DNA from: Sulfobacillus thermotolerans
Lineage (GTDB): Bacteria > Bacillota > Sulfobacillia > Sulfobacillales > Sulfobacillaceae
Assembly (NCBI GenBank): GCA_002951815.1
Contig: CP019454.1
Location: 2,108,001-2,172,000, forward strand
DNA length: 64,000 nucleotides
Direction of reading: 5' to 3'
A model generated the notes under the pieces. That model was given only the letters and a program-made list of their open reading frames with translations, was not told the DNA's origin and did no database searches. Within the stretch, counting starts at the first letter, position 1. Each line of letters opens with the position of its first letter. Position numbers and translations under genes: made by a program. Shown one piece after another: positions 33,684 to 58,873 of the stretch.

Positions 33684-33828
33684 CGCAAAAAAACCCGGAG
33701 ATCGACGACACCTCTAAACTCGTCAAATCTGTTGATCGATAACGGGTTTGGCTGATTTTGTGACTCTTCAATTTGCAACAAGAAGTTTTTACAGAGTTGA
33801 CAACCCTTGATGCAACAAGGCAAAATGG
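33678..33828 (+). promoter_or_regulatory. Leader of CRISPR array 1
   Basis: A 151-bp leader sharing blocks at equal spacing with the leader of array 2: CAGTAGCGCAAAAA at offset 0, ATCGACGACAC at offset 23, GTTGACAA near offset 118, and CAAAATGG directly before the first repeat. A promoter-like TTGACA (33797-33802), 18-bp spacer and CAAAAT (33821-33826) occurs in both. The leader begins 6 bp before the end of the Card1-like gene. Confidence 0.75.
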
Positions 33829-35711
33829 GTTCGTAGCCTACCTATGAGGAATTGAAACACCCACGACGATCGCATCATCATGGACAAGCTGGCCAGTTCG
33901 TAGCCTACCTATGAGGAATTGAAACTGCGATTTCGCGCAGTCCCTCATGGTAAGTCTGCGGAGTTCGTAGCCTACCTATGAGGAATTGAAACTTCGAAAC
34001 AAAGGCCACTGGATGCCTTTGTGCTCGCGTTCGTAGCCTACCTATGAGGAATTGAAACACAGCCGCTCTCACACTCTGCTCGTCTGCCTTAGTGGTTCGT
34101 AGCCTACCTATGAGGAATTGAAACACAGGTACCCCCATCACCAATAAACCGGGGGATTTGGTTCGTAGCCTACCTATGAGGAATTGAAACCGGTCGCCGG
34201 GACGGTCAGCGCCACGATTACGGGGTTCGTAGCCTACCTATGAGGAATTGAAACATTTTTTCAGCATACCACAACTTTTGAATGTTGTCAGTTCGTAGCC
34301 TACCTATGAGGAATTGAAACCCAAAAGGTCTCCTACCACAGCGAAGAATTTTCCTTGTTCGTAGCCTACCTATGAGGAATTGAAACTAGTGATAGGGTTT
34401 GTTGGGCCCCGGGGAGAATTTCGTTCGTAGCCTACCTATGAGGAATTGAAACTCCAGTATACCGTTACTCTCATTTCATCTTGGTAGATAGTTCGTAGCC
34501 TACCTATGAGGAATTGAAACCTTTCAAGGTACTTGAATGCCCATTCAACATCCTCAGTTCGTAGCCTACCTATGAGGAATTGAAACTAGGTAAAGTCTCC
34601 CACAACAACAGGGTCCCATAGCGGTTCGTAGCCTACCTATGAGGAATTGAAACCGTTCGTAATGCGAACGTGATACACTTAGACCATCAAGTTCGTAGCC
34701 TACCTATGAGGAATTGAAACTCGTTCTTCGGCAGCACCGCTAAGACGGCGGCGGGGTTCGTAGCCTACCTATGAGGAATTGAAACAAGCCACGGGATATC
34801 ACACGGAAGAAGAACTATTTGGTTCGTAGCCTACCTATGAGGAATTGAAACACCTCCATGTTCAGCATGTTCAATGAGAAGGCGTGTTCGTAGCCTACCT
34901 ATGAGGAATTGAAACACCATAAAGCAGCTACACAGCCTGCTAATAACGTGTTCGTAGCCTACCTATGAGGAATTGAAACCGGGCAAGATCCGCAAACGTA
35001 TCATGAGGGACTTCGTGTTCGTAGCCTACCTATGAGGAATTGAAACACGGCATTTTTCACACCTTGTTCGTCCGTCTTAGTGGTTCGTAGCCTACCTATG
35101 AGGAATTGAAACGGGCATGTGTTGGTGCTGGCAGTTCCGGCGGCTCTAGTTCGTAGCCTACCTATGAGGAATTGAAACAGTGGTGCTGGTCTAGATGTGT
35201 CGGGGGAAATTGCCGTTCGTAGCCTACCTATGAGGAATTGAAACTCTACTAAAAAGCAATATGCTTCCGCCTCCCTGCCCTGTTCGTAGCCTACCTATGA
35301 GGAATTGAAACATACGGAAATCAAGAAAAATGTGCGCGAATTATCCCTTCGTTCGTAGCCTACCTATGAGGAATTGAAACTTCCAGATATGGAGAGTCCT
35401 CAATTCATACTTTTCTGAGTTCGTAGCCTACCTATGAGGAATTGAAACTCGGGAAGGTCACGAAAAAAGAGGTTAGCGTGCCAGTTCGTAGCCTACCTAT
35501 GAGGAATTGAAACTCGTACACCCAGTGAGGGTCCACTCCCTCACACGGTTCGTAGCCTACCTATGAGGAATTGAAACTCAAGACTGATACCTTGTTGTTC
35601 TTCAAACTCCTCTGTTCGTAGCCTACCTATGAGGAATTGAAACATCGTCTCATCATCCCCCAACTCCGCCATCAGGCAATCGTTCGTAGCCTACCTATGA
35701 GGAATCGAATC
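33829..35711 (+). CRISPR. CRISPR array 1: 29 repeats, 28 spacers
   Basis: The 30-bp repeat begins GTTCGTAGCC and ends GAATTGAAAC, so the crRNA 5' handle would be ATTGAAAC. There are 29 copies from 33829 to 35711 with spacers of 34-39 nt. All copies are identical except the last (35682-35711), which has two changes near its 3' end (GAATCGAATC), marking the leader-distal end. Direction is set by the leader on the left and the degenerate repeat on the right. Two spacer pairs (spacers 2 and 18; 4 and 19) hit homologous viral sequences. It lies between the III-B and I-B operons and probably serves both. Confidence 0.98.
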
Positions 35712-44567: not shown

Positions 44568-44717
44568 CAGTAGCGCAAAAAGTGCCGTCGATCGACGACA
44601 CATCATGATTGCTTCTCAGCCTTTGCTGACAAGGGTTAGCGTCTCAGCACTAAAATATTGGATCCCTTGCTGGAGAAACCTTTCGTTGACAAATCAAGCT
44701 ATATCAGCGCAAAATGG
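44568..44717 (+). promoter_or_regulatory. Leader of CRISPR array 2
   Basis: A 150-bp leader colinear with that of array 1: CAGTAGCGCAAAAA at 44568, ATCGACGACAC at 44591, GTTGACAA at 44685, and CAAAATGG abutting the first repeat. The promoter-like pair TTGACA (44686-44691) and CAAAAT (44710-44715) keeps the same 18-bp spacing. A T-run (44550-44555) just upstream could end the cas operon transcript. Confidence 0.75.
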
Positions 44718-45670
44718 GTTCGTAGCCTACCTATGAGGAATTGAAACTCTCATATGACGAGCACTTCGCTTGGTGCATTTGGGAGTTCGTAGCCTACCTA
44801 TGAGGAATTGAAACTCGCAATCATATGAAGCCGCCAAAATTCTTCTTTCAGTTCGTAGCCTACCTATGAGGAATTGAAACTCATGCGACCAACAAGGGAC
44901 GGGCAGGCACTTATTAGGTTCGTAGCCTACCTATGAGGAATTGAAACACAGGCTATGTGCGCCACATCACCCATGATGGCCAAGTTCGTAGCCTACCTAT
45001 GAGGAATTGAAACCTGCGAAACACATGGATGGTCAGGCAATACGGGGGTTCGTAGCCTACCTATGAGGAATTGAAACGAGCACCTTGATAGCGGCCATCG
45101 ACGCTTGGCAGGCGTTCGTAGCCTACCTATGAGGAATTGAAACGTGAGACTGCGAGCTACCATCTTATGAACCTCATCGGTTCGTAGCCTACCTATGAGG
45201 AATTGAAACGCCACAGACCTTAAAACCTTGCTCAAGGCTAATGCGTTCGTAGCCTACCTATGAGGAATTGAAACCATAGAATCGGTGAACAGTTTCAATG
45301 TGAGCATCAGTTCGTAGCCTACCTATGAGGAATTGAAACGCATTTTCGACGAGGAAGGCTTTTCCTTCCTGTACGTTCGTAGCCTACCTATGAGGAATTG
45401 AAACCCGCTACGGCATCCTGCCACGAGGGCGCCGTCATGGGGTTCGTAGCCTACCTATGAGGAATTGAAACCGGAAATCTAGCGTTTACCACGGCGCGTA
45501 ATACCCGTTCGTAGCCTACCTATGAGGAATTGAAACGACGCTCAGCCGTTCTTGCCCTTTTTCCTCTAATCGGTTCGTAGCCTACCTATGAGGAATTGAA
45601 ACCAACATTGTTGGGTACACATCTCCCTCCTCCTTCTTGGGTTCGTAGCCTACCTATGAGGAATCACTCA
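44718..45670 (+). CRISPR. CRISPR array 2: 15 repeats, 14 spacers
   Basis: The repeat is the same 30-bp repeat as array 1, with 15 copies from 44718. Spacers are 34-37 nt. The fifteenth copy (45641) keeps the first 24 bases and then diverges (GAATCACTCA), marking the leader-distal end. A further decayed copy lies at 45705-45734. Transcription should run rightward from the leader at 44568-44717. It follows cas2 directly, the usual place for the array used by the I-B adaptation genes. Confidence 0.98.
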
Positions 45671-47925: not shown

Positions 47926-48657
47926 GTGGTTCAGCTACTGCTTTTATGACAAGTCGTCCTGACGCACTGAAAGCCGCGCCCTTATATGCGGTCTCGCAAA
48001 TTCCCCAAAAATCGCAGGAGGAAGCTTCTGTGGCGCCGAGCCTGTTTCATGATGTTTGTGTAAACTTTGGTGAGAACATTGCCCCAGGGCTACCTCAAGG
48101 CGGGTCTGGGACCGAGGAGGTCTCTTGCGGCCTTGAACCATGAGGGCCAACCGCTGATGCATTGAAAGACGCAAGCCCGTCCTATGACGGGTGGTCGGAA
48201 GGTTATCCGTAGGGAACTGCAGGTAGAAAATCTGTCGTGACCGATGGTGACTTTAGGGACTCCTGATAAAAATTGCGGGCTATGTCATGCTTAAGCAATA
48301 ACGTCCTTCTATGGTCAAGAGAACGATCTCGTACTTGGGAATATATGGGCACTGTAGGCAACAAGGGGTCAACGGGATACGAATAGTGCTTAAGGTTATG
48401 ACAACTTCTCAGTAGCATTTTCCGGCAGGCCTCTTTCGAGAACAGCTGTTGTGATAGGCCATACTTGCCAAATTGCACAATTTCGACACAGGGCAGACTT
48501 TTCAGCAAAAATGAGGCCAGGAATCTGTACTGAACAGAACTATGCCTCGAATGACGGCAGGTTCGGAATATATCCTCAGTAATTTACGGAAATATCGACG
48601 AATATTGCCAACGCAGGGGAATAAAATGTAAAATTATAAAAAACATTTGGTGATTAG
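47926..48657. other. Intergenic before the three-gene operon, possible gene debris
   Basis: About 730 bp. A minus-strand frame at 48203-48508 (TTG start, about 101 codons, including SLDHRRTLLLKHDIARNFY) reads like coding sequence, but I do not recognise it and it has no clear ribosome binding site. A second minus frame (47944-48174) is weaker. An A+T-rich stretch at 48625-48657 may carry the promoter of the next operon. Confidence 0.4.
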
Positions 48658-50982
48658 ATGAGCAATCAAGACTATCTTAAAATGCTTCCGCCAAATATCA
48701 TTCACATATTAGTTGATTTGTTTGGGAATGCTAGTGAAGATTTTTCTTTCGCTTCACGGATAGCATACTATCTATACGTGGAAAGTCGATTGTCTCCTGA
48801 GGAGTGGACCCGCGATAAATTTTTTGAGATGGCGTCGCGTAGAGGATGGTCGAATTCGGAAACCAGACGAAGGTGGGCGCAATTTCAGAGAGTAGTGACG
48901 CGTCTTGGAGAAAGCCACGAACAAGCCGTTTGTCTTATCGATTCAAATGGAAACGGAAAAATTCGTGTACTGAGCGGAAGAACGCCGTGGACCTTAAAGC
49001 TTTATTGTTCTGGGTACACCAACACAATAGATTTTATGCGACGCATTGAAGCTATAAAGGACCAAGGATGGGTCATTATGGACCCTGTATTGAATGGCAA
49101 CGCTACAGACTTTGAGGTCAGTGTGAAAAAAACCTCTTCGGCTACCACAGTTCATGTTTCTGACCTTGTACTTCAGCTAACTCGCTTAGGGATGACTCAA
49201 AATGTAAAAGAGGCCGTACAGTCTAAGCCCGAAATAGCATTAATTGGTTATAAGACTGACCTTAGTTATCTTCAAAGACAACTACGCCTTATTGTTGAGG
49301 GATGGCAGCGTATTCGGAACTGGTTAGAGCTATATCGTCAAAGCTGTGATTCCAATCAAGTTCCTTCTCCGCAGAGCTTAGAACGTATATATCAACTCGT
49401 AACGGAAGCGCCTCATACGGGCGGGTTTAACACCATAATTTTGGATTTGGATAGGATAATGAAGAAGTATGATAGATTGTGTCGAGAATTTGATGACGAA
49501 GTAGTACATATCGAAGAGTTTCTGTTGATTGCTCAGCGACAACCTCTAATTCAACCTCTATGGAAAAATTTAGAATTAGAATTGATTGGTTTTATGTCAA
49601 AGCAGCTTCAGAATATTGGAAATCCCATAAGTTCAGTACATTCATTGGACAAAAGCTCCCGTGAACAATGGGCCAATCAAATTGCCATTAGATTTAATGC
49701 TCTCAAGCTGGCAGGAGAAGTTTTGGAGGAAAGAGCAAAGATTGTACACCAAATCGATGCTGAGCTTCGATGGGTTGAATGGCAGACTGCTAGGCAACTA
49801 GTCTTTTTAGATGACGAAAGTGCAATAGATCGGCTTCTTAATCCTGATTTTCGAGAAATGATGGCAGTTGATTTGGATGCATGCACAAAAGGATTAGAGC
49901 TTGCAGCTCGACGGTTGCGATACGATGCGGTTATCGCTTTTCGCGATATTCTACCTTTTAAAGCATCCCCAAGTATACATCAGTGGACCGCTCACGCCTA
50001 TGTGGCTCAAGGGAATGATGTAAAGGCCTTACAAGAGTTGGAAGCTGTAAAAAATATAGAGTGGTTGCCGTGCACGTATGGTGTTGCAGCTACCGCCTTA
50101 ATACGCTTAGGACATCATGAAGAAGCTGTCCCAATTGCCAAAATTGCTATCTCCCATGGGTGGCTAGAGAGGCCTGAAGCTCCCGAAATGGTTGATGAAC
50201 TTGTATTAACCGGAAGTTTGGTGCGTGACGAGCTTTTAGATTTTTGTAACTTAGTTGTAGACCATTGTACGAGTTATTCTCAAGCTAAATTATTTGAGTC
50301 GGCCTATGAGCAACGGATTGCTTGTCTATTGGATATCCAAGGCGTGGATCCGCGGGAGGTATTGGATGCATGCGCGAGCTTTACCGAAATGCTTACAGGT
50401 AAAGGGGAAACGTCGGATGCATGGCGGATCTACTGTAGCTTTAAGCCGCAAATAAAGGACGTGATAAAACTTCAGTGGCTGGATAGTTTGGCGGCTGACA
50501 TCCCTGAGGCACTTAATGAAGTCAAGAACATTGCATGGAAGTCTTTAAGTAATTCTTTAATTCATGAACAGGCTGTTGAGATACTAAAAGCGTATAAGTC
50601 TGTACCTAAGGAATTTCGCCATGATGATGCTCTTTCATCTCCCGATCACATTAAAATTCAGCCGTTATCACTTCTTTTGGCAGGCGCAACTAAGAGCATT
50701 CGTACTCAAGTGAGAAAGCGTTTGGTAGAGGAGTATGGATTTCCTGCGCATTCCATAGCCGAGGTAGCTTCACCATGGGAAGGTCATACAAGCACTTCAG
50801 AAATTCGGTCCCTTGTAAACAGGCACGATCTTGTTGTTGCTTATACATCCATGATGAAACATTCGTTGTGGGAGCAACTGGACGTACCCTCTGAGAAATT
50901 GGTCTATCCGCCGTCGGGAGGAGTATCTGGCTCGCTTGCGGTCATTCTTGAAAGATGTCGACAGTCAATGGAGGCTTCTTAA
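48658..50982 (+). CDS. Unrecognised 774-residue protein with DUF2325-like C-terminus
   Basis: First gene of a three-gene operon. The N-terminal 120 residues look like a helical and winged-helix domain (LSPEEWTRDKFFEMASRRGW). The middle is mostly alpha-helical, with HQWTAHAYVAQGNDVKALQELEA suggesting TPR-like repeats around residues 435-500. The last 110 residues resemble DUF2325: SLLLAGATKSIRTQVRKRL, then HDLVVAYTSMMKHSLWEQL, then VYPPSGGVSGSLAVIL, a small Rossmann-like fold. No signal peptide or membrane span. Base composition is visibly more A+T rich than the CRISPR region. Function unknown; a sensor or regulator role is a guess. Confidence 0.65.
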   Translation: MSNQDYLKMLPPNIIHILVDLFGNASEDFSFASRIAYYLYVESRLSPEEWTRDKFFEMASRRGWSNSETRRRWAQFQRVVTRLGESHEQAVCLIDSNGNGKIRVLSGRTPWTLKLYCSGYTNTIDFMRRIEAIKDQGWVIMDPVLNGNATDFEVSVKKTSSATTVHVSDLVLQLTRLGMTQNVKEAVQSKPEIALIGYKTDLSYLQRQLRLIVEGWQRIRNWLELYRQSCDSNQVPSPQSLERIYQLVTEAPHTGGFNTIILDLDRIMKKYDRLCREFDDEVVHIEEFLLIAQRQPLIQPLWKNLELELIGFMSKQLQNIGNPISSVHSLDKSSREQWANQIAIRFNALKLAGEVLEERAKIVHQIDAELRWVEWQTARQLVFLDDESAIDRLLNPDFREMMAVDLDACTKGLELAARRLRYDAVIAFRDILPFKASPSIHQWTAHAYVAQGNDVKALQELEAVKNIEWLPCTYGVAATALIRLGHHEEAVPIAKIAISHGWLERPEAPEMVDELVLTGSLVRDELLDFCNLVVDHCTSYSQAKLFESAYEQRIACLLDIQGVDPREVLDACASFTEMLTGKGETSDAWRIYCSFKPQIKDVIKLQWLDSLAADIPEALNEVKNIAWKSLSNSLIHEQAVEILKAYKSVPKEFRHDDALSSPDHIKIQPLSLLLAGATKSIRTQVRKRLVEEYGFPAHSIAEVASPWEGHTSTSEIRSLVNRHDLVVAYTSMMKHSLWEQLDVPSEKLVYPPSGGVSGSLAVILERCRQSMEAS

Positions 50983-50984
50983 GT

Positions 50985-53900
50985 ATGGAGACGTTAATTG
51001 GATTGCTTGAAATGGAACAAGAGCTTGAACAATGGCTTCAAGAAACAAGTGCTCCAGTCCTACTCATTGAATTGCCATTTCGAAACAAAGGGCTAGTACT
51101 TGAGTCGCTTAGAAGCCTTATAGACGAATTAGGAAAAAATGCTTTCGAAGAATTCGCTAGATTGTATCCGCTGACTTTTTCACGGTGGCTTGTAGACGAG
51201 GCAGTAGATGTTTACGAGGATGGTGCACTGTGGCCACGAATCGCTGCACTTTTGTATATACCAGAGACATGGACAAATGAATGTGGTCGTGCTTTTTATA
51301 ATGCTGTTCAAAATTTGGGACTACAAACCCATCACGGAGGAAAGCAATTTGTCGCTACCATACTAGCCCATGGGGCGATTCCCACACAAGAGTTACCAGC
51401 TTTATTCCGCTTGTTACAAAACGTCTTAAGCCACTTGCCTCGTTCATCGTCAGGGGATGTAATTCTGCGGAAACTGCGGGAACTCCCAGCATTAACTTAT
51501 CAATCCAAACCAATTCGGCGTTTTCTGTTCAACGCTCCTTCAAATTTTGTAAAGGGATATTTGCAAGAGATGGCCACCATGTTGATGAATGGGCCAAATT
51601 CGGACTGTCGGAGGAGCTTGCAACAAGGATATCGCCTTTTCCAGCTTGGGGACCAACACCCCGTGAAGTTGAGCGTGCGTAAGAAGCGCCCATATCTGAG
51701 GTTAGGGCTAGAGCCACAAGATACACACCCAATGGTCCTTGTTTTCCCAGAATGTGAAACCTCTTCAGAAAAATCACCGTGGCGAATTTATACTTCGTTG
51801 GGTGACATGGTTGTAAATTGGCCACCACCATCCTCGCTTCAAATCGACCGTTATCGCCATTCGTTATGGGAGGTTGAATTAGACAAACCGAGATTATGGC
51901 TAGACATATGGTATCAGGATACCTTTGTTGAAGAAATTTCGATTCGTCAACCGGTCCTCATTTTTTCTGATGATGGAACTCTCTATAAACATCCTTGGCT
52001 GTTAAAGGGACGGTTTTACTTCATTTTGATGGCCCCGGGATGGCGTATCATCAATAAGGATCTGATTCGTGGAGAGTCACCTGCCTATTTTGGGGACTGG
52101 TCTGGATACCATATATTATCTATTGAAGCGTTAGGACCCGCTCTTGAGTGGACAGGCCCGCAAGGGAATGGAAAGATGCTTATTTTGGTTCAACCGTCAG
52201 TAGATAAATACATTCGGGTTTTATCAGATCAAATACCGATTATTCGTGTCATTGGGTTGCCAGTCGACGCTGATTTTGCACCAATGGACTTTACTATTCG
52301 TAATTTGGCGTCTGAGACTACGGTTACATTATCTGAGGGAGAAGTCTTGATAGACGATAATAGAATCAGTCTTGATGTCTCTAGAGCTATACCGTCGTTT
52401 GGCCAATATTCTCTTCATATCCATGGACCATATGGCATTAACGACAGTGTTGATGTTGACTATGGTCCATTCATTCAGTGGCAAGTGCCAGAAACTGTAA
52501 GATGGCCTCACGTCGAAACAGGGCAGTACCCATTAGGATGCATCAGTGCAACCTATAATCCTGAAACGACCGTGACTGTATCTGATTCTTGGCGTGTAAA
52601 GTCGACGCGGTCGGGATACACAGAGTATTGGGTTGGGGGGTACGAGTTCCATTTAGGTCTGAATGTTTACTATCAAAGCCAAACATATTCGCCTTCCGTA
52701 GTGCTGCGAGAAATAACATGGGAATGGACTTCTAAACAATATGCGAAAATTGAGAACGCTCCCCTGCGTATCACATGGGAGCAATTTCTTCATGATGAAT
52801 GGACCTTAGAATGGCATTGTCGAACCGGAAATGAAATGGAGTTATCTCTTTGGGACAAAACAAGGATCTTAAAGACTTTGGGTTTACGTCAGACAGGTAA
52901 ATCGTACGTTATTAATGATCTTATCCGTGATGAAATTCAACGAGAGTCATCTACCGAGTTTCGGCTTATGGCTCAAATTCGCGATAATCATGAGGTTAGA
53001 AGTTTTCCAATACTGTTTCTTCAACGTGCTGCACCTCGAGACATAGTTCTCCACGAGAACGACGCAATCATTCGACTTTCATGGCGAGGACACTATGTTT
53101 CGAATGTTTCTGGCTTTATCACGTCTCTATTAGGTTTGTATGATCCAGTACAATTTTCTTTTAAACAAGTCTTGCGGCATGGCGAACACTTTGAAATAAT
53201 TGTTGACCATCCTAAATACAAAGGACCAACCATTGTAAAAATTAAGGGCGATAAAGGGGGCATCCTTCAGTGGCATGGTCTTCTTAATAGGGGAGGTACG
53301 GGAAATTTAACGCCTTTTATGAAGCGAGTACAACGATGGATAAGCGACCGTGAAGACGCGCCTTTCCCTGAAAGCTCTCATGATTATGTTTTATGGGTAG
53401 AAGGTCTGGTTTTCTTATCGAGCGGGCAGACATCCCGGGCTGTAAATTACATCATTTTATCACATTTGCGCAAGGCAGCAAGTCGTTGGATAACCGCTGC
53501 TTTAATGAGCACTCGGCCGCGACATAATCTATTTATTTTAGGACTGCCACAATGGAAGATTTTTGACACTGTAGGTTCTTTGGATATGTCTGCTTTAATT
53601 AAACAGTTGGATGCTGTTGGCAAAAAATCAAAAGTTCTTGCGTGGTTACTAGGAAATTCTTGTTATAAATTTGATGAGTATTTGGCTATAGCCGTATTTG
53701 GTGAGCAAGGAACTGAGATATCGAGGACATTATCTAACGGAGAATTCTCTACAGAAACACGCCGAATGTTCATGAGCATTATTAAATCTCAAATTTATCC
53801 AGTGTCGTTTGGTGAGAGTTTGGAACCGCCTATATTGGACGTTGACCGTCAGTGGTTGTCACAAATGGTAAACATTTTGGGAAAAGGTAGGCATTTAGTA

Positions 53901-54140
53901 CACGATTACATTTCGTGGGCAGTCCATGCGCTTTATACAGAAGAAGTGTCAATTGGATATTTGGCGCTATTACAACGAGCTGTAGCTAGAGGAATGCTGG
54001 AGATTAATGAGGGTCGTCTACTGCATATCCAGCAAAAGTTGTCGACAAATTGGTGGCTTGTTTATGAAAGGGAATTGGCTCGCAGTGAGCTTCTTTGTAG
54101 CATTTTAGAAGATATTGATCAGAGGAGGGAATATAGATGA
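50985..54140 (+). CDS. Unrecognised 1051-residue protein of the helicase operon
   Basis: Second gene. I place the start at 50985 because GGAGG lies 10 bp upstream; 50955 is also in frame. Residues 1-230 are helical (METLIGLLEMEQELEQWLQE onward). Residues about 230-760 are rich in Trp, Tyr and alternating hydrophobics (TWEWTSKQYAKI-type stretches), suggesting several beta-sandwich domains. The last 250 residues are helical again. There are no nucleotide-binding or nuclease motifs that I can recognise. It overlaps the helicase by 4 bp, so the two are probably made in fixed ratio and may form a complex. Cytoplasmic; function unknown. Confidence 0.6.
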   Translation: METLIGLLEMEQELEQWLQETSAPVLLIELPFRNKGLVLESLRSLIDELGKNAFEEFARLYPLTFSRWLVDEAVDVYEDGALWPRIAALLYIPETWTNECGRAFYNAVQNLGLQTHHGGKQFVATILAHGAIPTQELPALFRLLQNVLSHLPRSSSGDVILRKLRELPALTYQSKPIRRFLFNAPSNFVKGYLQEMATMLMNGPNSDCRRSLQQGYRLFQLGDQHPVKLSVRKKRPYLRLGLEPQDTHPMVLVFPECETSSEKSPWRIYTSLGDMVVNWPPPSSLQIDRYRHSLWEVELDKPRLWLDIWYQDTFVEEISIRQPVLIFSDDGTLYKHPWLLKGRFYFILMAPGWRIINKDLIRGESPAYFGDWSGYHILSIEALGPALEWTGPQGNGKMLILVQPSVDKYIRVLSDQIPIIRVIGLPVDADFAPMDFTIRNLASETTVTLSEGEVLIDDNRISLDVSRAIPSFGQYSLHIHGPYGINDSVDVDYGPFIQWQVPETVRWPHVETGQYPLGCISATYNPETTVTVSDSWRVKSTRSGYTEYWVGGYEFHLGLNVYYQSQTYSPSVVLREITWEWTSKQYAKIENAPLRITWEQFLHDEWTLEWHCRTGNEMELSLWDKTRILKTLGLRQTGKSYVINDLIRDEIQRESSTEFRLMAQIRDNHEVRSFPILFLQRAAPRDIVLHENDAIIRLSWRGHYVSNVSGFITSLLGLYDPVQFSFKQVLRHGEHFEIIVDHPKYKGPTIVKIKGDKGGILQWHGLLNRGGTGNLTPFMKRVQRWISDREDAPFPESSHDYVLWVEGLVFLSSGQTSRAVNYIILSHLRKAASRWITAALMSTRPRHNLFILGLPQWKIFDTVGSLDMSALIKQLDAVGKKSKVLAWLLGNSCYKFDEYLAIAVFGEQGTEISRTLSNGEFSTETRRMFMSIIKSQIYPVSFGESLEPPILDVDRQWLSQMVNILGKGRHLVHDYISWAVHALYTEEVSIGYLALLQRAVARGMLEINEGRLLHIQQKLSTNWWLVYERELARSELLCSILEDIDQRREYR

Positions 54141-57100
54141 TTAATCCTATCAAGCTTACTAGAGAGGTACAAGAATCTTATCTTCGTTATTTAATGACAA
54201 CATTCGAGATTGCTGATGAGCGCATTCGTGAAGCATTCAGGAGAGAGCTTTATAGGGATGAAGGATATATCAATGGTCCATTCCTTGAAGCAACGCCTCC
54301 TTTTCGGCTCGGCCGATCGCTACGGGAATTAATCGTGGCAGGAAACTTATCTTCTGCATGGTTGGATGTGCCTTCAGTGGACGTCGACCGGAGACTCTAT
54401 TCTCATCAAGACCGAGCTCTTGAAAAAATCCAAGACAATCGAAACGTAATTGTTTCCACGGGTACTGGGAGCGGGAAAACAGAATCTTTTTTGTATCCTA
54501 TCATTGACAGTTTAATGCGAGAGCATATAGAAGGGAAGTTATCTCCAGGAATCCGGGCGCTTCTTTTGTATCCTATGAATGCGCTTGTCAATGATCAACT
54601 TAAACGATTGCGAGGGTTGCTTCGGGACATACCTTACATAACTTTTGGTAGATTCACCGGAGAAACACGCGATACCGATGCGCAGGCCATGGCAGAGTTT
54701 CGGTTCGCTCCACCTCCAAATGAAATCATTAGCCGCGCGCAGTTGCGAAGGACGCCTCCCCACATTTTAGTTACCAACTACGCAATGCTAGAATATCTCT
54801 TACAGAGACCCGATGATACTCCGTTATTTGATGGTCAATTCGCAGGAAATTGGCGGTTCCTAGTTTTGGATGAGGTCCATACGTATAGCGGTGCAAGCGG
54901 CGCAGAAGTAGGAATGTTGATTCGGCGGCTAAAAGACCAGCTCAATCAACCGAAGTTGCAAGCTATTGGCACAAGCGCAACGATAGGGTCAGGAGAAAAA
55001 GATTATGTAAAGGTGGCACAATTTGCCTCAAATTTATTTGCTGAGTCCTTTGAATGGGTTGTTGGGGACTCCCGACGCCAAGATATTGTTGGAGCCGCCA
55101 GATTGTCATTGGAGGAGGTGAGTCCGACATGGGGACGCTTATCTCCACAAGGCTATGAGGTTCTATATGAGTGGGCGTTAGAGGGAAAAAATCCCGAAAG
55201 AATTGACTTCATGGAAATTGGGATAGCTACCCATGTTTCACAACGATTTTGTGTTGAATGGCACACTAAAGGGAGTAAATATGCTATTTATAATCTTTTA
55301 GTCGGTGATGAGAATATCCGTGATTTGTCAAGATATTTGGAAGAAAGCCAACCATTAGGTCATCTTATTGAAATGTTTTCGAGTGTGCAAAGCTTTACGG
55401 ATAGAGATTTTCTGTCTATGGTTAACCTTGCAGTGTGGGCCAAACCAACCGATCAAGATCAGTCATTGATACCAGCACGTTATCATCTCTTTGTTCGGGC
55501 AACTGAAGGAGTATTTTTGGCCCTCTATCCTGAATGGAAGGTCTTTTTACAAAGGCACGAATCCTATACATTGGGGGATGAAACCTATCCTGTTTGCGAG
55601 TTAGGATATTGTCGACGGTGTGGTGCGCCCTATTTAGTGGGTAACATTAATGAATCGGAGTCTCGGTTAGTCCCATATGCCCCATATCGATTGCAAAATG
55701 ACGTTCATGCCCAACAGTTTCCGGACTATTTTGCCGTGACCGTAAATGATGAAGAAGTGGAAGATGACACGGATGGAATACTTACTCCGGAGAATTTAGA
55801 AACGTTCCAGTTTTGTCGTCGTTGCGGTTGGATTGCATCATCAAAGGTCAAGGTATTTGGTGGGTGCAAGGATGATGGCACACATGAACTTATAAGCCTA
55901 ATAAAATCTCCCCTCTCACAACAAGGGTATCATCGGTGTGTTCAATGTGGTGCTGGTTCAGGACGAGGTCCGTCGCGATTTGTCACCGGCCAAGACGCAG
56001 CGGCCGCGGTAGTTGCTACTGCTGTGTATTCAGCCTTGCAACCTGATCGGCCAGCGGATAGTATTCAATTAGAAGACCTAGGGAAACTTCTTGTTTTTTC
56101 AGACAGCAGACAAGATGCCGCCTTTTTTGCTCCTTATCTTGAAACATCCTATCAGCGCATCGTCTGGCGTCGACTTATATGGGAAGCTTTGACACGGGAA
56201 GACATGGTAGGTCAGGATAATCCTTGGATTGCTGATGTACATGAACGTCTTCTGACATTGGCAGAAGAATATGGCATGCTAGCCCTTCTTTCAGGCCTCA
56301 GCGTGAATCAAAAATCAGCGATGGTTTGGGAAGTTCTGCTACGGGAGTTAGTGAGTGACAGTGATATTGGATTAGAACGCGTCGGAATGATTGCAATTGA
56401 CCCGATTATCGATTCGAAGTGGCGTGTTCCCTCGCTTGCTCATTGGTCGGATACAGAACATACTTGGGATTTAATATCAGTATTGTGGAACGAGTTTCGT
56501 ACCGTTGGAGCATTGTCGTTGCCCAAGCAAGTTTCTGCTTCCAAAGTTCTCCCGTATGAAAGTTCTCAAATGCCAGGGTTTAGCCGCGTTACACGTGCTG
56601 GGGGTATTTTACCTTGGCTTCCGGAAAAGACTGGCTACCGAAATAGTCGACTTGATTATGTGGCTCGCATTGGCATTAAACTTGGATGGCCGGAAGAAGC
56701 GGCCTTAGAGTGGGCTCGCGATTTACTGAATGAGGCATTTACATATTTTACGGATGAATCGCAACCGTGGGCTCATGTAAATACAGTGTTCAGTAGTGGA
56801 AAAACTGGCATGAAAGTCCAAGCGACCCATCTACGCTGGGTTCTACGACCTCTTGCTATGCATGAAGTTTTTCGTTGCAATACATGTGGTCGAATTACTG
56901 TGCATAATTTACTGGGAGTGTGCCCGGCGTGGAAATGTGCGGGAACATTAGAACCAGCTGATCCAGCTCGCCTGAGTGAAAACCACTATTATCAAATGTA
57001 TAGAGGTATCAATCCGGTACCGATGGTGGCTCGTGAGCATACAGCGCAAATAAACAGTCAAGATGCGCAACGGTTACAAGAAGACTTTTCTCAAGGACGG

Positions 57101-58873
57101 GTAAGCGTGCTGAGTTGTTCTACTACATTTGAGCTTGGGGTAGATGCGGGCGACTTAGAAGCTGTTTTCATGAGAAATGTGCCGCCTGAACCGGCTAACT
57201 ATGTCCAACGTGTCGGCCGGGCTGGGCGTCGCACATCTTCGGCGGCAATTGCGGTTACGTTTGCACAGAGACGTTCGCATGATATCGCCCAGTTTAACAA
57301 TCCCAAACGATATGTTGATGGACGTGTATCGCCGCCACGAATTATCCTTAATAACGAGAAAATTGCTCGACGTCATCTTCATGCTGTCGTAACATCGTGG
57401 TATTTTCATCACCATCCTGAATCATTTGGGTCAATGAAGGAGTTTCTTTCCGGAGCCAATGAGCAGTGGGAATACCATTTACAGCAACTCAGGCAAGAGC
57501 TTCACCCGGTTCCTTCTGAGCTCAAGAGAAGTATAGAAAGAGTTATCCCTCCCGACTTGCACGAAGTTATGGAAATTGAGACTGATGGGTGGGTGGACAA
57601 GCTTGTTGGTCCAAATGGAGTAATGACTCAAAGTATTGATACCCTTCACGATACCCTACTTCAAATTCAACAAGTTCGTAATCAAATGTTTCAGGCTGGT
57701 AAGCATATCGATGCATTCACCCGAATCCTAGATACCTTGTTGTCGCAGCATTGTCTGCAGTTTTTTCCATCTCATAATGTGCTACCGAAATATGGATTTC
57801 CTGTCGATTTGGTAGAGCTACGGATTATGGATACAAGCCCAGAAGCATTGCGGGTGGACTTGACCCGCGACCTTGGGCTAGCAATTCTTGAATATGCTCC
57901 TGGAAATACGGTGGTTGCAGGAGGTCTCTTGTGGAAGAGCCATGGTTTACTTCGGCGTCCTGGACTTGAGTGGAGACGTCATACCTATTCCCAATGTCGT
58001 GAGTGCGGATACTTTGCTATTAGTAAACCATTTCTCGGACTTGAGACAGAAGTCTGTCCAGGGTGTGGAAGTCCGTTATCGAGGCCGCTAACCATGGTTA
58101 TTCCACAGTTTGGATTTACGACTTCCTTGGAGGATAAGCCATCGAAACCAGGAAATCAACGTCCAGAACGTGTGGGAGCTCGTAGAGTATTTTTTTCAGC
58201 TTTCGGTGAACACGGCGAACCAGAAATTCGTTCAGAACATCTCCTAGATGGAACGTTCATCCAATGGTCATACTCAAGGTGGGGACAATTTACTGTTTTG
58301 AATCATGGCCAATACGGGCGAGGTTATCACATCTGTAATACATGTGGATGGGCCGCGCCAGTTAAAGAGATATCGAAAAGGCGACAAAACAAGCAAAATC
58401 TAGATCACAGAAATTCTATGGGGACACCATGTCCGGGTAGTTATTTCTATACGGCATCCCTTGGCCACCAATTTGGTACCGATGTGGTACTTTTGACATT
58501 TTCACAACTTCAAAATGCCAATCTGTCATTTTGGTACTCACTCTTATATGCTTTATTAGAAGGCGCAATTGAAGGACTTTCAATCAATCGTAGAGATTTA
58601 GGTGCAACACTATATTGGACTGGGACAAAGATGACTCCAACGTTAGTCTTCTATGACGACGTTCCTGGTGGGGCTGGGCATGTCCAACATATAACAGAAA
58701 ATTGGATGACGGTGTTTAGGGAAGCTCGTATGCGCGTTGCAGGAGGATGTGGTTGTGGTCCCGAAACAAGTTGTTATGGCTGTTTAAGAAGCTATGAGAA
58801 TCAGTTATTTCACGATTTGCTAACACGTGGGAGTGTAAAGGACTTTTTGGATGGAGTGTTGGGGTATAGGTGA
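54137..58873 (+). CDS. Large DEAD/DEAH helicase with DUF1998 domain
   Basis: A 1578-residue superfamily 2 helicase. Walker A is TGTGSGKT at 108-115, motif Ib TNYAMLEY near 213, DEVH at 245-248, SAT near 275, and motif VI QRVGRAGR near 1024. Cysteine pairs that could bind zinc occur near 492, 560, 601, 914-935 (CNTCG, CPAWKC), 1287-1310 (CRECG, CPGCG) and 1398. The C-terminal DUF1998 cluster GGCGCGPETSCYGC is near 1535. The layout recalls DruE of Druantia, the DrmA-DrmB pair of DISARM, and the shorter repair helicase MrfA, but is far longer than MrfA. All helicase motifs look intact. The ATG overlaps the previous stop and has GAGGAGGG upstream. Confidence 0.85.
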   Translation: MINPIKLTREVQESYLRYLMTTFEIADERIREAFRRELYRDEGYINGPFLEATPPFRLGRSLRELIVAGNLSSAWLDVPSVDVDRRLYSHQDRALEKIQDNRNVIVSTGTGSGKTESFLYPIIDSLMREHIEGKLSPGIRALLLYPMNALVNDQLKRLRGLLRDIPYITFGRFTGETRDTDAQAMAEFRFAPPPNEIISRAQLRRTPPHILVTNYAMLEYLLQRPDDTPLFDGQFAGNWRFLVLDEVHTYSGASGAEVGMLIRRLKDQLNQPKLQAIGTSATIGSGEKDYVKVAQFASNLFAESFEWVVGDSRRQDIVGAARLSLEEVSPTWGRLSPQGYEVLYEWALEGKNPERIDFMEIGIATHVSQRFCVEWHTKGSKYAIYNLLVGDENIRDLSRYLEESQPLGHLIEMFSSVQSFTDRDFLSMVNLAVWAKPTDQDQSLIPARYHLFVRATEGVFLALYPEWKVFLQRHESYTLGDETYPVCELGYCRRCGAPYLVGNINESESRLVPYAPYRLQNDVHAQQFPDYFAVTVNDEEVEDDTDGILTPENLETFQFCRRCGWIASSKVKVFGGCKDDGTHELISLIKSPLSQQGYHRCVQCGAGSGRGPSRFVTGQDAAAAVVATAVYSALQPDRPADSIQLEDLGKLLVFSDSRQDAAFFAPYLETSYQRIVWRRLIWEALTREDMVGQDNPWIADVHERLLTLAEEYGMLALLSGLSVNQKSAMVWEVLLRELVSDSDIGLERVGMIAIDPIIDSKWRVPSLAHWSDTEHTWDLISVLWNEFRTVGALSLPKQVSASKVLPYESSQMPGFSRVTRAGGILPWLPEKTGYRNSRLDYVARIGIKLGWPEEAALEWARDLLNEAFTYFTDESQPWAHVNTVFSSGKTGMKVQATHLRWVLRPLAMHEVFRCNTCGRITVHNLLGVCPAWKCAGTLEPADPARLSENHYYQMYRGINPVPMVAREHTAQINSQDAQRLQEDFSQGRVSVLSCSTTFELGVDAGDLEAVFMRNVPPEPANYVQRVGRAGRRTSSAAIAVTFAQRRSHDIAQFNNPKRYVDGRVSPPRIILNNEKIARRHLHAVVTSWYFHHHPESFGSMKEFLSGANEQWEYHLQQLRQELHPVPSELKRSIERVIPPDLHEVMEIETDGWVDKLVGPNGVMTQSIDTLHDTLLQIQQVRNQMFQAGKHIDAFTRILDTLLSQHCLQFFPSHNVLPKYGFPVDLVELRIMDTSPEALRVDLTRDLGLAILEYAPGNTVVAGGLLWKSHGLLRRPGLEWRRHTYSQCRECGYFAISKPFLGLETEVCPGCGSPLSRPLTMVIPQFGFTTSLEDKPSKPGNQRPERVGARRVFFSAFGEHGEPEIRSEHLLDGTFIQWSYSRWGQFTVLNHGQYGRGYHICNTCGWAAPVKEISKRRQNKQNLDHRNSMGTPCPGSYFYTASLGHQFGTDVVLLTFSQLQNANLSFWYSLLYALLEGAIEGLSINRRDLGATLYWTGTKMTPTLVFYDDVPGGAGHVQHITENWMTVFREARMRVAGGCGCGPETSCYGCLRSYENQLFHDLLTRGSVKDFLDGVLGYR

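Follow-up and report, generated by a model that had tools for sequence, protein, structure and literature searches.

The three genes at positions 48658 to 58873 of the 64,000-nucleotide stretch of Sulfobacillus thermotolerans DNA analysed here (hereafter the window) are best explained as a divergent Druantia-type anti-phage operon, in which a nuclease-less DruH-like/DruE-like core that fits the Druantia III-like (III-B) description is joined by a lineage-specific first gene; we put the probability of this reading at roughly 0.78. The original prediction had presented the operon as a candidate new defence system. A helicase operon of defence type is indeed what we find, but its core fits an already recognised kind, namely Druantia III-like.

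Operon organization and genomic context

All three open reading frames lie on the forward strand and have the predicted lengths of 774, 1051 and 1578 residues. Gene 1 (48658..50982, 774 aa) has no detectable relatives, gene 2 (50985..54140, 1051 aa) is a probable remote relative of DruH and gene 3 (54137..58873, 1578 aa) is a predicted SF2 helicase of the DruE/YprA family. The gene 2 frame has two candidate starts, at 50955 and 50985, and the latter, which gives the 1051-residue product, is preferred because a GGAGG ribosome-binding site, read directly within the 3′ end of gene 1 (50970..50974, forward strand), precedes it and its ATG follows the gene 1 stop by two bases. Gene 3 starts in an ATGA overlap with gene 2 that is preceded by GAGGAGG. 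Just 5′ of gene 1 there is a promoter-like site (TTGCCA-18-TAAAAT, 48605..48634, forward strand), which is a consensus match only; it is the best such site near any start, and the region's total of these sites is not above that of shuffled sequences. The three-gene stretch has a GC content of 44.2% (43.3% in gene 1 and 42.9% in gene 2) as against 49.0% in the remaining window, as had been predicted, and comes near the window's lowest 10.2-kb stretch. The three co-directional genes are a tight A+T-rich operon.

The CRISPR-Cas locus said to lie 3 kb away is also present, with cas8-like TM1802, cas7, cas5, cas3, cas4 and cas1 genes at 36.6-44.3 kb of the window. Two CRISPR arrays (33811-35709 and 44697-45670) flank the cas genes on both sides and have one 30-base repeat in common, GTTCGTAGCCTACCTATGAGGAATTGAAAC, in about 29 and 15 copies respectively. 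The second array ends at 45.7 kb and thus about 3 kb from gene 1, and the interval holds a DUF1616 gene and a gene for a CPBP-type protease. The host genome is a single contig of 3.3 Mb. Neither gene 1 nor gene 2 occurs in any of seven further genomes from this genus.

Gene 2 is a remote relative of DruH, most likely by common ancestry

Neither gene 2 nor those of its relatives that we tested matched a PADLOC DruH, NCBIfam or Pfam model, and by the curated definitions gene 2 does not belong to the DruH family. Its predicted fold consists of helices (residues 2-214), tandem Ig-like beta-sandwich domains (about 239-781) and a second set of helices (about 824-1048), in a structure model of moderate confidence (pLDDT 61) whose C-terminal third is poor. 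Structure searches for gene 2 returned generic tandem Ig/Fn arrays with middling Z scores; the matches listed did not include the DruH structure, which has no bearing either way.

When a profile of 73 gene 2 family sequences was compared with a profile of seven DruH proteins, the two aligned collinearly over 620 columns (E 3.8e-8, probability 95%), from the N-terminal helical part through the Ig-like region, while the helices at the C-terminus of gene 2 fell outside. The canonical DruH-DruE pairs used here were drawn from plasmids, and PADLOC confirmed the identity of DruH in both of those submitted to it. Half-profiles behaved in the same manner, the gene 2 N-part matching only the DruH N-part (2.7e-4) and the Ig-part only the Ig-part (1.6e-5), with values of 0.5-0.9 for the cross pairs. 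In the controls, five column shuffles and a reversed DruH profile all failed (0.6-0.99). Since DruH itself was shown by cryo-EM to be made of helices, Ig-like domains and helices (PMC13192584), the profile match and the helical/Ig-like/helical model together indicate that gene 2 is built like DruH, most likely because of common ancestry. Thus the earlier statement that the helicase has no recognised Druantia partner is not supported, and of the two proteins described as unfamiliar only that of gene 1 remains so, the product of gene 2 being recognisable as a DruH relative through purpose-built profiles. The relationship is nevertheless a distant one: among the best loci listed in the survey described below, the canonical DruH profile matched none of the 76 upstream partners of gene 3-type helicases. 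Cyanobacteria hold a closer relative of gene 2, namely the first of the three proteins in a Druantia-like triad (E 3e-26, profile-profile).

In many Bacillota (L007:4621-9348, L031, L033 and others), the relatives of gene 2 have a long coiled coil inserted after the N-terminal domain and before the Ig-like part; the gene 2 of the window lacks this insert.

The gene 2-gene 3 pair across genomes

A collection of 84,980 species was scanned with gene 3 relatives alone, and the 80 best matching loci were listed. At least 80 helicase loci therefore occur, in Bacillota, Actinomycetota, Chloroflexota, Bacteroidota, Aquificota, Latescibacterota, Cyanobacteriota, archaea and other groups. Enough upstream sequence to judge the neighbour was available for 76 of the best 80. 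An earlier, independent profile placed this neighbour in the gene 2 family at 58 of the 76 loci (E<1e-3) and a larger profile at 69 of 76; because the larger profile contains some of these very sequences, 58 of 76 is the unbiased figure. In the close genomes, a gene 2 query retrieved a clear relative in G040 and another in G053, the latter directly upstream of a gene 3 relative, and a profile made from three gene 2 sequences had matches in 29 of the 398 phylum genomes searched, where a gene 3 relative nearly always came next wherever the contig allowed. The two genes thus form a unit across Bacillota, Actinomycetota, Chloroflexota, Bacteroidota and Aquificota as well as in archaea. The distribution is patchy, at 3 of 61 among the close genomes and 29 of 398 in the phylum. 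None of the three genes had a match in viral contigs, and no relatives of gene 1 or gene 2 were found on plasmids. The neighbours of the pair loci, in a plain listing that has no control set, include restriction-modification, MADS and Lamassu-like genes.

Co-occurrence of all three genes, which would have marked the trio as a system, was borne out for genes 2 and 3, which travel together, but not for gene 1, which we found nowhere else. As genes 2 and 3 occur without gene 1 in every one of these dozens of loci, gene 1 does not belong to the conserved unit.

Some of the loci depart from the simple pair. In several Clostridia (L095, L087, L112, L116, L124, L133 and L135), a homologous gene of 570-625 aa that PADLOC scores as RTasNERD-Hel / NERD+UvrD lies within a few bases downstream of the helicase, possibly making up a nuclease-bearing variant of the pair; its presence indicates that accessory genes around a fixed core do occur in this branch. 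Two actinomycete helicase frames, L096:7763-14650 (2295 aa) and L120:8525-14683 (2052 aa), run far upstream of the usual start and represent either a fusion with the partner or an artefact of start calling. Finally, in Streptosporangium carneum the gene 2 relative (L146:1995-5312) is several genes upstream of the helicase, so that the pair can be interrupted.

Gene 1, a lineage-specific component

We found no relatives of gene 1 in 60 close genomes, no genuine ones in 398 genomes of the phylum, none in plasmids, phages, viral contigs or the PDB, and none next to any of the best 80 helicase loci listed. Three weak matches in the phylum set (G131, G223 and G352) are spurious: two are ClpB-like proteins, judging from their sequences, the third is an unrelated protein of 557 aa, and none adjoins a DruE. 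Gene 1 is thus a lineage-specific third component or add-on, restricted to this genome among those searched. Its product is predicted to be mostly helical, with weak TPR-like matches at about residues 436-491 and, near the C-terminus (about 678-740), a weak DUF2325-like stretch whose E-value of 0.012 is below the cut-off and which is the only one in the genome. A single-sequence structure model was too poor to be used (pLDDT 43).

The operon layout and the common low GC suggest that gene 1 is functionally linked to genes 2 and 3. Conversely, the gene could be a passenger, co-transcribed by chance and without a part in defence, which would be compatible with our reading of genes 2 and 3 and would suit a gene that is found nowhere else and accompanies none of the other gene 2-gene 3 pairs. 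We regard this as possible, with the odds against it, given that gene 1 is the first gene of the operon, that only two bases separate it from gene 2, whose ribosome-binding site it contains, and that its GC content is as low as that of gene 2.

A wholly new three-gene defence system, with gene 1 as an essential part and the tie to Druantia reduced to a borrowed helicase, appears improbable to us. Indeed, although no curated model names gene 1 or gene 2 and gene 1 is tightly coupled within the operon, such a system is difficult to reconcile with the collinearity of gene 2 with DruH and with dozens of loci that have genes 2 and 3, all without gene 1. If the operon is instead a divergent Druantia-type one, as we propose, gene 1 might still be indispensable as a third component and alter the way in which the nuclease-less DruH/DruE pair works, for example by adding a new trigger or effector step. 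We consider this unlikely; if true, the operon would represent a new Druantia subtype with a previously undescribed protein family.

Gene 3 is a predicted DruE-type helicase

Pfam identifies DEAD, Helicase_C and MZB (equivalent to DUF1998, at residues 1471-1550) domains in gene 3, and the Walker A motif GTGSGKT (109-115), the DEVH box (245-248) and motif VI QRVGRAGR (1024-1031) can all be recognised. An alignment with relatives shows little variation in Walker A, motif VI, the DEAH-type box or the cysteine pairs, all of which are intact in gene 3. The protein ends 28 residues past MZB and hence has no PLD or other nuclease domain; as had been noted from the outset, the operon as a whole holds neither a methyltransferase nor a PLD nuclease. 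PADLOC, which was expected to tell a known system from a new one, scored gene 3 as DruE (DruE1 7.5e-176, DruE3 2.3e-163) and left gene 2 unmatched. Judged by these sequence matches, gene 3 is a DruE-type YprA-family SF2 helicase, in agreement with the predicted DUF1998 helicase close to DruE.

The helicase core and the MZB domain are also common to MrfA/YprA, and the operon is chromosomal with ordinary genes around it, so that a housekeeping DNA-repair helicase operon with two passenger genes has to be weighed. However, the closest solved sequence to gene 3 is the Druantia III DruE (9tu7, 7e-81), a far stronger match than YprA (6znp, only 2e-17), which led us to reject MrfA/YprA as its identity, and the sporadic distribution, the recurrent DruH-type partner and the A+T-rich stretch next to CRISPR-Cas all make a repair operon very improbable.

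Proposed mechanism and implications

In characterised Druantia III, sensing is probably the task of DruH, which is associated with proteins of the phage baseplate or tail and nicks DNA as a dimer; DruE loads on 3′ single-stranded DNA (PMC13192584). The mycobacterial DruH-DruE, which has no recognisable nuclease, is reported to block the circularisation and replication of phage DNA, with a minor tail protein as its activator and with a DruH that is toxic unless accompanied by DruE (PMC13316683). By analogy with characterised Druantia III, the gene 2 product would sense infection via its Ig-like domains and may itself act on DNA, and gene 3 would load on replicating phage DNA at 3′ single-stranded regions, translocate and block replication. 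Much more tentatively, the gene 1 product might bind that of gene 2 or gene 3 as an adaptor, a regulator or an additional sensor.

What is new here is a partner family missed by annotation, its breadth, its ties to DruH and to the cyanobacterial partners, and gene 1. Since annotation tools score the helicase yet miss the partner, complete DruH/DruE-like systems have probably been overlooked in many phyla, archaea included. The gene 2 family also links DruH with the coiled-coil partner of the cyanobacterial loci, which suggests that one ancestral Ig-domain protein lies behind several Druantia types. As both core proteins are without a recognisable nuclease, this branch raises the question of how Druantia stops phage DNA without one, and gene 1 offers a defined accessory that is open to experiment.

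Relationship to known systems

Gene 3 has what characterises Druantia of any type, a DruE-type YprA-family SF2 helicase with DUF1998/MZB and intact motifs. In helicase trees (two, built by a quick method with SH-aLRT support only), the gene 2-paired helicases, including those of the window and of mycobacteria, are on one branch (SH-aLRT 97), canonical DruE III is on a separate one (SH-aLRT 100), and the type I-like and cyanobacterial helicases stand apart. In the second tree, L149 groups with ARMADA and L147 with the cyanobacterial helicases, and therefore not all of the 80 listed loci belong to the gene 2-paired branch. An E. coli plasmid helicase (L050) that had at first been labelled as ARMADA clusters with canonical DruE III in the first tree, and the second tree was built without it.

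With canonical Druantia III (STY4851 family/YjiT DruH-DruE; PMC13192584; PDB 9tud and 9tu7), the operon has in common the gene order, the helicase core and, in DruH and gene 2, the helices/Ig-like/helices architecture. In contrast, canonical DruE has two PLD domains where gene 3 has none, no DruH model (PADLOC DruH3, NCBIfam) matches gene 2, and the helicase is on a separate branch. A canonical type III system merely unscored by the databases is thus very improbable, since the like gene order, the relationship to DruE and the remote homology to DruH are outweighed by a well-supported separate helicase branch and by the absence of two defining features, namely a C-terminal PLD-like nuclease past DUF1998 and a curated DruH match. 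By sequence and gene layout the operon does fit Druantia III in a wide sense, having a DruH-homologous partner of like architecture (its C-terminal part uncovered by the alignment) in an abutting two-gene unit.

Also related is the cyanobacterial triad (L049:4161-14357, L062:4328-14204, L063:3477-14315 and L147), composed of a coiled-coil protein, a protein of about 310 aa and a DruE-like helicase of about 2100 aa. Neither of the first two proteins of L049 matches a PADLOC model. The first protein of L049, L062 and L063 is akin to gene 2, but these loci have an extra middle gene and a helicase on another branch. DISARM and ARMADA likewise have a YprA-family helicase in common with the operon, which however lacks their methyltransferase, BrxHII-like helicase, separate DrmB and PLD gene; in DISARM, DrmA and DrmB are separate proteins, whereas gene 3 has helicase and DUF1998 in one chain. 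We also considered Azaca as a matching three-gene system and rejected it: in the literature text available it appears in mentions only, with a PLD-type domain, and it is absent from the best 25 PADLOC models for gene 3.

Two further published systems are close to the operon. Bell and colleagues, in the main text of their article, describe a distinct Druantia III-like helicase branch, most often without nuclease, and name GIH50614.1 as an example of Druantia III-B (PMC12458937). The gene 2-gene 3 branch fits this description in the features compared: in both, the DruE-type helicases stand apart from the canonical III branch and mostly have no nuclease. A BrxA-like helical insert in the helicase is a further feature of the published branch; in gene 3 and its relatives, what the alignment shows is invariant cysteine pairs. 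The partner protein of the branch is not described in that main text, and relative to it the window differs by the extra upstream gene 1. Thus the assertion that no described system has this gene set is not supported for the core, as genes 2 and 3 make up a widespread unit agreeing with the branch as that text presents it.

The second is the DruH-DruE of Mycolicibacterium smegmatis, in which a gene of 1132 aa abuts one of 1667 aa, with no canonical nuclease and no gene 1 reported (PMC13316683). The window helicase is about 35-37% identical to the mycobacterial members of the branch, and gene 2 about 15%. In one of these mycobacterial helicases (L183, 1668 aa), K119, A292, A1016 and C1516 are in exact register with four of the six residues published as mutated in the M. 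smegmatis DruE, while the other two, D225 and P800, do not agree with it; the register of the four was seen in no canonical DruE. Judging from the protein lengths and this residue register, the experimentally tested M. smegmatis DruH-DruE probably belongs in the same branch as the operon of the window.
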